A stretch of DNA of 64,000 nt from a virus. Under the pieces are notes generated by a model. It had not been told where the DNA came from. It saw only the letters and a list, made by a program, of their open reading frames with translations, and ran no database searches. Location of the stretch: positions 124,001 through 188,000 of the IMG/VR virus record IMGVR_UViG_3300020810_001156. The stretch is one strand, 5' to 3'. The position numbers and the translations under genes are program-made. The stretch's first letter is position 1, and every line of letters starts with the position of its first letter. Shown piece after piece: positions 50,469 through 57,133 of the stretch.

Positions 50469-51827
50469 ATGCAAAATATAGATACTCTTTCAAAATACGG
50501 ACAATCCTTTCAAACGAAGGTACTTTCTTCTTTGATTACGGATGTTCGTTTATTGGATACTCTTAGTGAGATTATACATCCAAAGTTTTTTGAAGCTGAG
50601 GCTAATAAATGGATAGCAGAGGAGATTGTTTCATATTACGATGAATTTAAGAAATCTCCAACATTAGACGTTTTTAAATCCGAAGTTTCGAAGTTAGATG
50701 ATAGAGGGTTTCAGAAAAGTGTAGTAGAGCAATTAAAATTAGTTTTTACCAAAGTTGGTGATTCTGATTTGGATTATGTAAAGAAAGAGTTTTCTTCATT
50801 TTGCATCAACCAAAACCTAAAACAAGCTATTGTTAGTTCAGTTGATTTACTAAAAGCTGGTAACTATGATAGAATCAAAGATTTAGTAGATAAAGCAATG
50901 AAGGTAGGAGTGGATTCAGATATGGGACACGATTACCTTTTAGATTTTGAAGAAAGAACTAACGAAGTTGATAGAAGTACAGTTCCAACTGGTTGGGATT
51001 GTATTAATGAATTGATGGATGGTGGTTTGGGACCTGGCGAATTAGGAGTAGCAGTAGCACCTTCTGGTGTTGGTAAAACTTGGGTACTATGTGCAATCGG
51101 AGCAGCAGCTGTTAAGAGAGGATTAAATGTAGTACATTACTCTTTGGAATTATCAGAACATTATGTGGGACAGAGATACGATACTGTATTTACACAAATC
51201 CCATCAGCAGATGTGAAAGATAAGAAAGAAGAAGTAAAAGAGAAAATCAATAGATTGAGTGGAAAACTTCTTATTAAGTATTTCCCACCAAAAGGTATAT
51301 CTGCTAAAAAATTAGAATCCCATATTGAGAAGATGACAGCAGCAGGAAATAAACCTGATTTGATAATTATTGATTATGCTGATTTGTTATTATCTCACAC
51401 TAATAAATCCGATTCAACCTATGGTGAGCAAGGTGGTGTTTACATTGAGTTGAGAGGTATTAGTGGTGAATTGGGTATTCCTATTTGGACAGCATCCCAA
51501 ACCAATCGTTCAGCAATTGATTCTGAAGTTATTGAAGCGGATAAGGTAGCAGATTCCTACGCTAAGGTAATGAACGCTGATTTCATTATGAGTATCAGTA
51601 GAAAGAGTAAGGATAAATTGAACAATACTGCAAGATTCCATATTATGAAAAACCGATTTGGACCCGATGGAATTACTTTCCCATCTAAGATGGATACCAA
51701 TACTGGATTCATTGAGGTTTATGATGGCAATTCATCAGATGGAATTATTACACAAAAAGAATCTGCAAATGGAGAACAAATGGAGAAAAAGTTACTTCAT
51801 AAAAAGTATGTTGAAAACTTTGGGTAA
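50469..51827 (+). CDS. 41: Replicative DNA helicase (gp41, DnaB family)
   Basis: 452 residues, near T4 gp41 (475). The N-terminal 150 residues are helical. The RecA-type motor has Walker A APSGVGKT (197-204), the H1a segment VHYSLELSE, Walker B PDLIIIDYADLLLS (D302), and IWTASQTNRSAID (sensor/H3). It unwinds DNA 5'-3' on the lagging strand as a hexamer. It has its own Bacteroidota-type promoter. No gp61-type primase gene is visible within the window. Confidence 0.92.
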   Translation: MQNIDTLSKYGQSFQTKVLSSLITDVRLLDTLSEIIHPKFFEAEANKWIAEEIVSYYDEFKKSPTLDVFKSEVSKLDDRGFQKSVVEQLKLVFTKVGDSDLDYVKKEFSSFCINQNLKQAIVSSVDLLKAGNYDRIKDLVDKAMKVGVDSDMGHDYLLDFEERTNEVDRSTVPTGWDCINELMDGGLGPGELGVAVAPSGVGKTWVLCAIGAAAVKRGLNVVHYSLELSEHYVGQRYDTVFTQIPSADVKDKKEEVKEKINRLSGKLLIKYFPPKGISAKKLESHIEKMTAAGNKPDLIIIDYADLLLSHTNKSDSTYGEQGGVYIELRGISGELGIPIWTASQTNRSAIDSEVIEADKVADSYAKVMNADFIMSISRKSKDKLNNTARFHIMKNRFGPDGITFPSKMDTNTGFIEVYDGNSSDGIITQKESANGEQMEKKLLHKKYVENFG

Positions 51828-51920: not shown

Positions 51921-51953
51921 CACCGAGCAGCAATCGAAGGTGTTCGGTTTTTT
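51921..51953 (+). terminator. Probable rho-independent terminator (or attenuator) after helicase
   Basis: ACCGAGCA (51922-51929) pairs with TGTTCGGT (51941-51948), one G-U pair, 11-nt loop, followed by TTTTT. The next ATG is only 29 nt further on. Either a promoter lies inside this short gap, or some transcription passes through and the hairpin acts as an attenuator. Confidence 0.65.
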
Positions 51954-51982: not shown

Positions 51983-52153
51983 ATGGCAACATCACAAGAA
52001 TTATTCGAACAAATCAAAGAACTCTTCGTTGAGTTTGAAGAAAATCACACTGCAACTACTAAAGCAGGTAAATCAAGAGCTAGAAAGGCAATTGGTGAAA
52101 TTAAAAAATTAGTAACCGATTACAGAAAAGCTTCTGTTGAAGAAAATAAATAA
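51983..52153 (+). CDS. Histone H1-like Hc1 family protein
   Basis: 56 residues. A leading helix (SQELFEQIKELFVEFEENH), a basic hinge (TKAGKSRARKAIGEIKKL) and the end VTDYRKASVEENK match the Hc1 family known from Chlamydia and widespread as very small proteins in Bacteroidota (pattern GNKAA-x2-R-x-R ... K-x2-K-x2-R-K-x-S). Those proteins bind and compact DNA. The gene is only 171 nt and easy to miss. The ATG is clear, and the product is followed after 5 nt by a SET-domain gene. A role in packaging or shielding phage DNA, or in remodelling the host nucleoid, is inferred. Confidence 0.75.
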   Translation: MATSQELFEQIKELFVEFEENHTATTKAGKSRARKAIGEIKKLVTDYRKASVEENK

Positions 52154-52158
52154 TCGTA

Positions 52159-52569
52159 ATGGATGTAATTGAGTATCTCCAACATTGTGTCAAAACCGAT
52201 ATAGCACCTTCTCCAATACATGGAATTGGTACATTCGCTTTAAGAGATATTGAAGTTGGTGAATCTCTTTTTGAAGTGTGGAAAGGTGATACTCGAATTT
52301 ATACCATTGAAAGGGATAAATTTGAGGAATTACCCCACTACACTAAAAAATTAATCTTAAAAGGGTATCTTAATAAACCCGAATACCCAGTTTATTGGTT
52401 TAGATTATTTAACGATTGTTATTGGAATTTGGCTAATCCAATAATGCATACAAACACAGCCGAAAAAAATGGTAACTTCGATTCAATCACTAAAAAAGTT
52501 ATCAAGCCAATCAAAGTTGGTGAAGAAATTTTAGGAACCTACAATTTAAACGATACAATATTAAAATGA
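52159..52569 (+). CDS. SET-domain protein (putative protein-lysine methyltransferase)
   Basis: 136 residues, about the size of the minimal viral enzyme vSET of chlorella virus PBCV-1 (119). N-SET: SPIHGIGTFALRDIEVGESL (18-37), with the HGIGTFA cofactor loop. The pseudoknot region is ANPIMHTNTAEKNGNFD (92-108), where H97 and N104 may stand for the usual NH-x2-x-PN. C-SET is VGEEILGTYN (120-129) with Y128 as the likely catalytic tyrosine. The canonical NH pair is partly changed, so activity is not certain. It follows the Hc1-like gene by 5 nt and overlaps the MazG gene by 4 nt (ATGA). Confidence 0.72.
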   Translation: MDVIEYLQHCVKTDIAPSPIHGIGTFALRDIEVGESLFEVWKGDTRIYTIERDKFEELPHYTKKLILKGYLNKPEYPVYWFRLFNDCYWNLANPIMHTNTAEKNGNFDSITKKVIKPIKVGEEILGTYNLNDTILK

Positions 52570-52877
52570 CATTTGATGAATTGATTGAAAACATCACCCA
52601 ATGGGCTGATGACAAGGGGATACTTGTTCCTGATAATGCTCCAAAACAATCTATGAAGATTATGGAGGAGTTAGGTGAAACAATGGGAGCAATCCTAAAA
52701 GGAAAAAAGACTGATGAAGTTATCGATGGTATCGGTGATATATTAGTTACAGTTATTATTTTAGCAAAACAATTAGGTTTAGAACCTACCGAATGTTTGG
52801 AATCAGCTTGGAATGAAATCAAAGATAGGAAGGGAAAGACCGTAAATGGTACATTTATCAAAGAAGAAGAACTATGA
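52566..52877 (+). CDS. MazG-like nucleotide pyrophosphohydrolase
   Basis: 103 residues. The MazG helical bundle is clear: MKIMEELGETMGAILKG (E-E-x2-E metal motif, about 37-41) and DEVIDGIGDILVTVIILAKQ (E-x2-D motif, about 56-68). Such enzymes hydrolyse dNTPs or (p)ppGpp-type nucleotides to monophosphates and are common in phages. ATGA overlaps with both the SET gene before and the nrdB gene after it show tight translational coupling with nucleotide metabolism. The substrate cannot be told from the sequence. Confidence 0.82.
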   Translation: MTFDELIENITQWADDKGILVPDNAPKQSMKIMEELGETMGAILKGKKTDEVIDGIGDILVTVIILAKQLGLEPTECLESAWNEIKDRKGKTVNGTFIKEEEL

Positions 52878-54154
52878 GTATATTTGTAGATACTACAGCG
52901 GAAGATGTTCACTTCGTAACTAAACGAGGTGGAGAAAAAGAGAGTTTTAAATTAGAAAAAATTCAAAATTCTATCCTAAAGGCAATGGAATCCATTGATA
53001 GGGTAGATGAGGAAGTAGCAGAAAAGGTTGCAAGAACTGTGGAAAGAAGTTTGTTTAAATACGAACACATCACTACTGTAACAGTAGATGAAATTGGTGA
53101 TGTTGTAGAAAACAAACTTATGGATGTTGGATTAAACAATGTAGCAAAAGAATACATTCTATATCGCTCAAAAAACAAACCAAACATCTTTAAGAAAAGA
53201 GTAAATCTTAAACCTTACGAATATCCACAATTAGTGGAGTATGTTGATGCTATTAGACACTCTTATTGGGTTCATACTGAGTTCAACTTCACATCAGATA
53301 TCCAAGACTTTAAAGTACATCTGAGTGAAAAGGAAAGAACCGCAGTAGAAAGAGCTATGTTAGCAATATCCCAAATTGAAATCGCTGTAAAAACCTTTTG
53401 GGGAGATATCTACAAAAAAATGCCAAAACCTGAGATTGGAAATGTTGGAGCAACTTTCGCTGAATCGGAAGTTAGACATGCTGATGCATATTCAAACCTA
53501 ATTCAGGTTTTAGGATTAAACAATGAGTTTGAAAACTTAATGGAAGTACCTGCGATTCGTAGAAGAATCAAATATTTAGAGAAATCTATTAGTGGAGCTC
53601 GTTCTATTGAAAATAGAGATTACTTTGAATCAGTAATACTTTTCTCTATGTTTATTGAGAATGTATCACTATTTTCACAATTCTTAGTGATGTTATCATT
53701 TAACAAACATAAGAATGTATTGAAAGGTATTAGTAACGCTGTTGAAGCAACATCAAAAGAAGAAAACATTCATGCTGAATTTGGATTTGATTTGGTTAAC
53801 ACAATCAAAGCTGAGAATCCTGATTGGTGGACTGATGATTTAGTTGAAGATATTATTGATGCAACTTTAGATGCATACGATGCTGAGGCTGAAATCGTAG
53901 ATTGGATGTTTGAAAAAGGAGATTTAGATTTCCTAACCAAAGAACAAACCTTAGAATTTATTAAAGATAGATTCAACAGGTCATTAAAATCAATTGGTAT
54001 CGATAGTGTTTTCAGTATTGATGAATCTTTATTAGAAACAACTGAGTGGTTTGATGATGAAATCCTTACCACAAAACATACCGATTTCTTTAACAAAAGA
54101 AGTATAAATTATAGTAAAAAACAAAAATCGATTACAGAAGACGATTTATTTTAA
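52874..54154 (+). CDS. nrdB: Ribonucleotide reductase beta subunit with N-terminal ATP-cone
   Basis: 426 residues. Residues about 10-98 form an ATP-cone (FVTKRGGEKESFKLEKIQNS, then ITTVTVDEIGDVVENKLMD, AKEYILYR), the allosteric domain normally on NrdA. The R2 core follows, with diiron ligands D142 or D145, E199 and H202 (SEVRHADAY), E262, E297 and H300 (EENIH), and radical tyrosine Y206 four residues after H202. NrdB proteins with an ATP-cone are known from some Bacteroidota, where dATP inhibits by changing R2 oligomerisation. The NrdA encoded next lacks a cone, so allosteric activity control is probably on this subunit. Confidence 0.92.
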   Translation: MSIFVDTTAEDVHFVTKRGGEKESFKLEKIQNSILKAMESIDRVDEEVAEKVARTVERSLFKYEHITTVTVDEIGDVVENKLMDVGLNNVAKEYILYRSKNKPNIFKKRVNLKPYEYPQLVEYVDAIRHSYWVHTEFNFTSDIQDFKVHLSEKERTAVERAMLAISQIEIAVKTFWGDIYKKMPKPEIGNVGATFAESEVRHADAYSNLIQVLGLNNEFENLMEVPAIRRRIKYLEKSISGARSIENRDYFESVILFSMFIENVSLFSQFLVMLSFNKHKNVLKGISNAVEATSKEENIHAEFGFDLVNTIKAENPDWWTDDLVEDIIDATLDAYDAEAEIVDWMFEKGDLDFLTKEQTLEFIKDRFNRSLKSIGIDSVFSIDESLLETTEWFDDEILTTKHTDFFNKRSINYSKKQKSITEDDLF

Positions 54155-54166
54155 GAAGTTACAATT

Positions 54167-55873
54167 ATGAGCGATAGAAAATTATTTGATTGGATTAACG
54201 AAGAATCCGTTACCTTTTTAAGAAGGGGGTATTTAAGTGAAGGTGAAGAACCTTTAGATAGAATTAAAACAATTGCAAACCATGCAGAAAAACTATTAGA
54301 AATCGAAGGATTTGCTGATAAGTTTATTGATTATATGGGTAGAGGGTGGTATTCACTTTCATCACCTGTATGGGCAAACTTTGGTAAGAAAAGAGGTTTA
54401 CCAGTTTCTTGTTTTGGTTCTAATATTGGTGATAACATTGAATCAATTCTATATACTCAAGCTGAAGTTGGTGAAATGAGTAAAATGGGAGGCGGAACTT
54501 CTGGTTACTTTGGTAACATCAGAGGTAGAGGTGCTGAAATTACTGATAATGGACATGCACCTGGCGCTGTTCACTTTATGAATCTCTTTCAAAGTGTAGT
54601 AGATAATATTTCACAAGGTTCAACTCGTAGAGGTAGATTCTCACCATACTTACCAATCGAACATCCAGATATTATGGAGTTCTTAGAAATTGGAACTGAA
54701 GGTGCAACTATCCAAGACCTTACACATGCGGTAACTGTTTCTGATGAGTTTATGGAAGAAATGATTGCTGGTGATACTGAAAAAAGAGCTGCTTGGGCAA
54801 AAGTAATCCAACGAAGAGGTGAAATCGGATATCCATATATTATGTTCTCAGATACGATGAACAAAAATACTGTGGATGTTTATAAAGATAAAAACGCTAA
54901 AATCTATAACTCTAATCTATGTTCTGAAATCGCTCTTCATAACTCAGAGGAAGAATCATTTGTTTGTGTACTTTCATCTATGAATGTTCTACACTATGAT
55001 GAGTGGAAGGATACTGATGCAGTTGAAACGATGACTTACTTCTTAGATGCGGTTGTAACCGAATTCCTTACTAAGATTGAAGCTATTAGAGATAATGGTA
55101 CAATTGAAGGTAAAAGAGCATTCTTCTACTTAGAAAAAGCATACAACTTCGCTAAAAGACAAAGAGCATTAGGTTTAGGTGTTTTAGGATGGCACTCATT
55201 TATTCAATCAAAAGGATTACCATTTGATAGTAGAGATGCGGCAAGATTAAATGTTGAAGTATTTAAACTAATCAAAGAAAAATCATATAAAGCATCCGAA
55301 GAGATGGCTGAAAAATATGGTGAACCTGAATACCTCAAAGGATATGGTAGAAGAAATGTAACTTTGAACGCTATTGCACCTACCACATCTTCAGCATTTA
55401 TCTTAGGACAGGTATCACAATCAATTGAACCAATTTGGTCAAATTGTTATGTAAAAGATGTTGCTAAAATGAAAGTAACAATCAAAAACCCAATCTTAGA
55501 AAAATTACTTGAGGAGTTGGGTAAAAATGATAAAGAAACTTGGAATAGTATTAAACAAAATGATGGTTCGGTTCAGCATTTAGAGTTCTTAACTCCTATA
55601 CAAAAAGAGGTATTCAGAACTTTTGCTGAAATCAATCAATCTACTATTATTAACCAAGCAGCAATCAGACAGGATTACATTGACCAATCACAATCTTTGA
55701 ATCTAATGATTGCACCTGATATGCCAACTAAGGATGTAAACAAACTCCTTATTGATGCATGGAAGTTAGGAGTTAAAACACTTTACTACCAACACTCAAT
55801 GAATTCAGCACAAGCTTTCGCTAGAAAGAAACTTGGATTGAATGATTTACATTGTGTTGCTTGTGAGGGATAA
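54167..55873 (+). CDS. nrdA: Ribonucleotide reductase alpha subunit (no ATP-cone)
   Basis: 568 residues, compact compared with E. coli NrdA (761) because it starts directly at the barrel (FDWINEESVTFL) without an ATP-cone. Catalytic residues are in place: C82 (PVSCFGS), N250-x-C252-x-E254 (SNLCSEI), C267 (FVCVLSS), the radical-transfer pair Y540-Y541 (TLYYQHS), and the C-terminal C563-x2-C566 that passes electrons to the active site. It converts ribonucleotides to deoxyribonucleotides for phage DNA synthesis, together with the NrdB 12 nt upstream and the thioredoxin 25 nt downstream. Confidence 0.95.
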   Translation: MSDRKLFDWINEESVTFLRRGYLSEGEEPLDRIKTIANHAEKLLEIEGFADKFIDYMGRGWYSLSSPVWANFGKKRGLPVSCFGSNIGDNIESILYTQAEVGEMSKMGGGTSGYFGNIRGRGAEITDNGHAPGAVHFMNLFQSVVDNISQGSTRRGRFSPYLPIEHPDIMEFLEIGTEGATIQDLTHAVTVSDEFMEEMIAGDTEKRAAWAKVIQRRGEIGYPYIMFSDTMNKNTVDVYKDKNAKIYNSNLCSEIALHNSEEESFVCVLSSMNVLHYDEWKDTDAVETMTYFLDAVVTEFLTKIEAIRDNGTIEGKRAFFYLEKAYNFAKRQRALGLGVLGWHSFIQSKGLPFDSRDAARLNVEVFKLIKEKSYKASEEMAEKYGEPEYLKGYGRRNVTLNAIAPTTSSAFILGQVSQSIEPIWSNCYVKDVAKMKVTIKNPILEKLLEELGKNDKETWNSIKQNDGSVQHLEFLTPIQKEVFRTFAEINQSTIINQAAIRQDYIDQSQSLNLMIAPDMPTKDVNKLLIDAWKLGVKTLYYQHSMNSAQAFARKKLGLNDLHCVACEG

Positions 55874-56165: not shown

Positions 56166-56369
56166 ATGCCAATACTAAGAGGACAGACTCATCCTTCTGC
56201 AAAATTAACGGATGAGCAGGTTATACAAATAAGAAGGTTATGGAAAATGGGACACCGAAATGTAAGAGTGATAGCTCGAAACAATAAGGTATCCCCAGCC
56301 AATATCATTAAGATTGTCAAAAATAAAACTTGGACACACCTAAATGAATTTTGGTCTGGTAGTTTATGA
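56166..56369 (+). CDS. Small helix-turn-helix DNA-binding protein
   Basis: 67 residues. HPSAKLTDEQVIQIRRLWKM followed by NVRVIARNNKVSPANIIKIV and KNKTWTHL is the HTH module often found at the C-terminus of phage HNH endonucleases and as free small proteins. No nuclease motif remains, so it may be a regulator or a leftover of a homing endonuclease. Its stop overlaps the next start by 4 nt (ATGA), linking it to the Mom-like gene. Confidence 0.65.
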   Translation: MPILRGQTHPSAKLTDEQVIQIRRLWKMGHRNVRVIARNNKVSPANIIKIVKNKTWTHLNEFWSGSL

Positions 56370-57133
56370 AAGAGGAGAAAACATATTGTGATACTTCTAA
56401 ACTTTCCATTCGTCTTATAACCAAATCGGTAGCGAAGGATATCATTGTTAACAACCATTATAGTGGATTGTGGACAAAGGTATCTTACGCAATTGGTTTA
56501 TTTACCTCTGATGTAGAAGAACATCCTTTTTTTGATAATGTAGAAGATAAACTAATTGGAGTAGCTTGTTATGGAGACCCAATTGGTAGAAGTGCTGGAC
56601 AATCAATATCCCCTTTATTGGAAAGAACTGAAGTATTAGAACTAACTCGATTATTCGTATTCGATGGATATGGTTCTAATATAGAGAGTTGGTTCTTAGG
56701 TCAAACTTTTGATTGGTTAAGAGAGAATGTACCACAAATAAAAGCACTTATTTCATATTCAGACCCTAAAGAAGGGCATTGTGGTACAATTTACCAAGCA
56801 ACTAATTGGTTGTATCAAGGTAACAAACTAAGATTCAATGATAGTTGGGATTTCAGATGGGAAGCAGGTGGTGATTGGCACCACGGAAGAACTTCTTATG
56901 TGAAATTTGGAACAAATGACCCCAAAGAAATACAAAAAATGATATCATCTACTTTTTGGATAAAGAAAAATCCAAGAAAACATAGATATGTGTACATTTT
57001 AGCCAAAGGTGGTGAAAGAAGGAAGTTGTTAAACAATATTAAACATCCAACCTTCCCCTATCCTAAAGAAAATGAACAATTTGTGGAAGAAATTCATAGA
57101 ATGGACCCGATAAATTTGGAAATTACAAAATAA
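56366..57133 (+). CDS. Mom-like DNA modification protein, copy 1
   Basis: 255 residues. LIGVACYGDPIGR, LELTRLFVFDGYGSNIESWF, LISYSDPKEGHCGTIYQATN and NWLYQG align in order with phage Mu Mom (VVGVCIYTGFP, YELSRLCLTPD...NIASWFVSRTIK, ILSYADNDFHSGVVYAACNF). Mom is a GNAT-fold enzyme that modifies adenine in phage DNA and blocks many restriction enzymes. Here it is encoded in an operon with nucleotide metabolism genes and followed by a paralogue. Similarity is read by eye; the exact chemistry on the base is not implied. An N-terminal YCDTSKLSIRLITKSVAKDI is shared with the paralogue. Confidence 0.7.
   Translation: MKEEKTYCDTSKLSIRLITKSVAKDIIVNNHYSGLWTKVSYAIGLFTSDVEEHPFFDNVEDKLIGVACYGDPIGRSAGQSISPLLERTEVLELTRLFVFDGYGSNIESWFLGQTFDWLRENVPQIKALISYSDPKEGHCGTIYQATNWLYQGNKLRFNDSWDFRWEAGGDWHHGRTSYVKFGTNDPKEIQKMISSTFWIKKNPRKHRYVYILAKGGERRKLLNNIKHPTFPYPKENEQFVEEIHRMDPINLEITK

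Follow-up and report, generated by a model that had tools for sequence, protein, structure and literature searches.

The closest described systems come from chlamydiae, a chlorovirus and other large phages. DNA binding of chlamydial Hc1 resides in its lysine-rich tail, and the SET protein vSET of chlorovirus PBCV-1 targets the eukaryotic histone H3 of its host. According to the account given in a review (PMC3980110), the chlamydial SET protein cpnSET was reported to bind and methylate Hc1 (Murata 2007). NUE, the C. trachomatis orthologue of cpnSET, failed to methylate Hc1 under the conditions of that study (PMC2904774), and the chlamydial SET-Hc1 precedent is therefore contested. Phage Hc1 is already on record, since a histone-H1-like protein with the PF07432 domain was described in four complete genomes of moraphages, whose predicted hosts are Bacteroidota (PMC12619734, 2025). 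The literature search found one paper that unites SET domain, phage and Hc1, and its subject is a chlamydiaphage capsid protein.

The DNA analysed here (the window, 64,000 nucleotides) is part of a virus record of 252,603 bases, which represents a large phage with Bacteroidota as the probable host group. This and related phages have a variable slot of replication and ribonucleotide reductase (RNR) genes that ends at NrdA, and Hc1 is almost always present at its edge. In the window the following features were assigned:

50469..51827, + strand: replicative helicase of the DnaB type, preceding the slot (Pfam DnaB_C)
51922..51953, + strand: terminator-like hairpin and U-tract, between DnaB and Hc1 (RNA fold)
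51983..52153, + strand: Hc1 (PF07432), 56 aa (Pfam E=1.9e-9)
52159..52569, + strand: SET-domain protein (PF00856), 136 aa (Pfam E=9.6e-5)
52566..52877, + strand: MazG-like pyrophosphohydrolase (ORF list, Pfam MazG match)
52874..54154, + strand: ribonucleotide reductase small subunit (NrdB) with N-terminal ATP-cone, 426 aa (Pfam Ribonuc_red_sm and ATP-cone)
54167..55873, + strand: ribonucleotide reductase large subunit (NrdA)

The original prediction named a 56-residue Hc1-type protein followed after 5 nt by a 136-residue SET-domain protein, then coupled to MazG and RNR genes, and this layout was confirmed. Hc1 scored 37.7 bits against a Pfam cut-off of 23.5 and covered positions 2-56 of the 57 profile positions. 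The SET score of 23.2 bits lies 0.8 bit above its cut-off (22.4) and is marginal. The start codon of MazG overlaps the stop codon of SET as ATGA, and NrdB is start-stop coupled to MazG by the same overlap. Both the Hc1 and the SET ORF were found intact again in related contigs, where selection on them is purifying (median dN/dS of about 0.2; 0.205 for the SET family), so they are real genes. The hairpin upstream of Hc1 has a folding energy of −12.5 kcal/mol (z −3.65) and is followed by a run of T. A terminator consensus scan did not pick it up, probably because of its loop limit of 8 nt. Its position suggests that Hc1 is probably the first gene of the operon. The NrdB type differs between slots, 331 aa in related slots instead of the 426 aa with ATP-cone seen in the window, which suggests an exchange of RNR genes. 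The same region of the window encodes a Mom-family protein (56366-57133; PF25680, E=1e-43), whose family includes the DNA-modification enzyme of phage Mu.

In these phages Hc1 is a small core protein, predicted to form a helical hairpin and related to the Bacteroidota/chlamydial Hc1 domain. AlphaFold2 confidently predicted two helices (residues 4-21 and 27-55, pLDDT 96.6). The protein stops where the Pfam domain stops, without a lysine-rich C-terminal tail of the chlamydial type, and its net charge is +1 (range 0 to +7 over 22 aligned phage Hc1 proteins). Relatives are present in at least 424 viral stretches, many of them without SET, and in Flavobacterium phage Immuto. A PDB sequence search with Hc1 gave no usable match, and PHROGs and NCBIfam matched neither Hc1 nor the SET family.

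The first reading of this locus was that SET methylates the adjacent Hc1 and thereby marks or tunes the phage or host nucleoid. The near-neutral, tailless Hc1 speaks against it, and so do its lysines: K27, K35, K41, K42, K49 and K56 do not vary, whether or not the phage has SET (alignment A3, 22 rows), so that no lysine is linked to the presence of SET. K41 and K49 vary in two more distant Hc1 proteins that were added to the comparison.

Gene order across related phages bears on the same question. Most slots carry RecA-like, exonuclease-like and DnaB genes upstream of Hc1, the first two labels being assigned by eye from the ORFs. SET directly adjoins Hc1 in 16 of 50 complete Hc1 slots, lies 1-3 genes away in 14 and is missing from 20, where the slots are records and not independent events. 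The orders Hc1-SET-MazG-NrdB-NrdA, Hc1-NrdB-SET-MazG-NrdA and Hc1-NrdB-methyltransferase-SET-NrdA were all observed. The placement of SET straight after Hc1 is not restricted to the window: the neighbourhood survey showed that it is conserved within one clade of related viral contigs (15 rows of the DnaB tree, window included). The DnaB tree has 53 rows, over which the label for SET switches 6 times and that for adjacency twice. The window falls in a well-supported inner clade with SET in 27/27 rows, versus 13/25 in the sister clade. SET relatives were detected within 5 kb of Immuto-type Hc1 in 0 of 80 loci. Hc1 was not found in eight SET records of 13-132 kb, which are fragments and leave its absence unproven; one SET record of 219 kb has Hc1 as well, about 199 kb apart within the record. 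Co-occurrence of Hc1 and SET was thus not obligate in complete slots, Immuto-type loci or SET records. Near SET and MazG, one slot also encodes an S-adenosylmethionine lyase family protein (L159:1999-2592; PF23780).

These distributions do not support the proposal of a self-contained nucleoid-marking system. Methylation of Hc1 by its neighbour draws on the direct adjacency in one clade, on vSET as the best solved structural match and on the cpnSET report in the above review; it is opposed by the many Hc1 genes without SET, by SET genes away from Hc1 or in fragments without it, by SET fusions to other partners and by the negative result with NUE. We consider it unlikely. Beyond adjacency nothing favours a dedicated Hc1-marking pair, which is only weakly supported, and the overall interpretation in the original prediction is partly supported, namely in its family assignments and in an adjacency that is conserved within a clade.

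The reading that we prefer, with a probability of roughly 0.6, is that Hc1 and SET are functionally separable genes that share a replication/nucleotide operon, SET being an accessory, divergent enzyme whose substrate is probably not specifically Hc1. Hc1 would be the core gene and SET a phage-specific accessory, placed beside Hc1 by shared operon membership, with direct adjacency reflecting the gene order of one lineage. Against this reading, SET is never lost in the window's clade while Hc1 is present, and the spacing of 5-15 nt between the two genes in this clade is tight. The evidence that bears on the substrate is indirect throughout.

The assignment of the second protein to the SET family is backed by a profile search (MLL1 SET match, E=0.016). 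A structure model was built from an alignment of 18 viral relatives (pLDDT 87.8), and Foldseek returned vSET as the best solved match, with E=4.8e-5 and a probability of 1.00 but a TM of only 0.37. Considering vSET and MLL1 together, the probability was 1.00 and E about 5e-5, but TM was about 0.4 and the rmsd about 13 Å. Good E-value and probability combined with a poor global TM make a SET fold likely rather than proven for the modelled protein. Among viral structures, SET-named proteins of giant viruses and uncultured phages matched the model, so SET in phages is not new as such. A tblastn search of INPHARED phages found no SET relative at E<=0.01. A 'SET' match in Lak-A1 was not counted, since it was weak and its TAG=Q reading had no clear catalytic Tyr. 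Bacterial and archaeal relatives are distant (about 30% identity across most of the domain in full-length matches), and Bacteroidota was named in no record title among those returned. Hc1 was not detected within the fetched flanks of these loci (L168-L184). Two SET-family frames lie side by side in three viral loci (L190, L191, L192), and tandem SETs occur in several bacterial loci too (L170, L171, L172, L176, L179, L184).

The viral SET proteins have a common set of motifs: GxG (G22, G24), E123, G126 and Tyr128 are shared by 18 viral relatives (alignment A1). At the position of the NHS motif, 50 aligned viral SET domains have NT (45) or NS (5) and the histidine is absent throughout, versus NH in 20/20 aligned cellular relatives. 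Loss of this histidine may indicate a protein without methyltransferase activity. A domain that is catalytically inactive or repurposed, e.g., for binding of S-adenosylmethionine or a protein, is suggested by this degenerate motif and by the marginal Pfam score. We regard it as doubtful, because the catalytic-position Tyr (GEExxxxY) is kept in 48/50 viral domains, with a gap at that site in the other two, GxG is kept and selection is purifying. Furthermore, PR-domain SETs such as PRDM9 lack the NHS histidine and yet are active. If the separable-gene reading is correct, the SET protein most likely binds S-adenosylmethionine and would most likely methylate a lysine of some protein, from host or phage, in the course of infection. 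Homology, gene order, co-transcription geometry, selection and fusions are observed, and from them S-adenosylmethionine binding, catalysis and substrate are inferred. The boldest version, in which a phage lysine methyltransferase whose active site uses Asn-Thr in place of NHS modifies phage Hc1 as a bacterial virus's own chromatin-mark system, appears improbable to us.

Further information on possible partners comes from gene fusions. In L156 and L141 a single ORF joins a Rossmann methyltransferase, GAMT-like, to SET, and in L160 a separate methyltransferase upstream matches guanidinoacetate methyltransferase. A 420-aa ORF (L139:7149-8411) combines DUF6065 (E=1.7e-70) with SET at the C-terminus; L135-L138 and L140 have ORFs that match it in length and layout, the domain scan having covered L139. 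None of the fusions found joins SET to Hc1, and the partners, methyltransferase or DUF6065, point away from Hc1. At the slot position that elsewhere holds methyltransferase and SET, one locus has an ORF in which a Rossmann methyltransferase is joined with a 2OG-Fe(II) oxygenase domain (L040:6129-7241).

In most gene orders SET adjoins MazG or NrdA, and in the window its end overlaps the start of MazG; it might therefore act on products of its own operon, the RNR subunits or MazG, to tune dNTP supply. SET loci without the RNR clusters of the slot beside them (L135-L141, L144, L145, L165) argue against this, and we judge it very remote.

Of the new findings, the Asn-Thr SET family and the fusions in which it takes part tell us most. 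Our data define a phage SET family with an altered NHS motif that recurs in an RNR/replication operon and is elsewhere fused to a methyltransferase or DUF6065, and they show that large phages retain a very small gene for an Hc1-domain protein. Should SET be active, phages would have lysine methylation of proteins as a tool in bacteria, and its substrates could be tested.

Of the known systems, moraphages resemble this locus by the PF07432 histone-H1-like protein of large Bacteroidota phages, while the phrase 'SET domain' is absent from the text of that paper (PMC12619734). As in chlamydiae with cpnSET/NUE and Hc1, one genome encodes both a SET protein and a protein with the Hc1 domain, but phage Hc1 has no basic tail beyond the Pfam domain, and phage SET has no NHS histidine. 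Chlorovirus vSET is likewise a small virus-encoded SET protein; identity to it is about 19%, the TM is low, and the NHS position reads Asn-Thr in the phage family. The small bacterial and archaeal SET proteins are similar in length and, in full-length matches, about 28-32% identical across most of the domain, but the canonical Asn-His is present in every one that was aligned.
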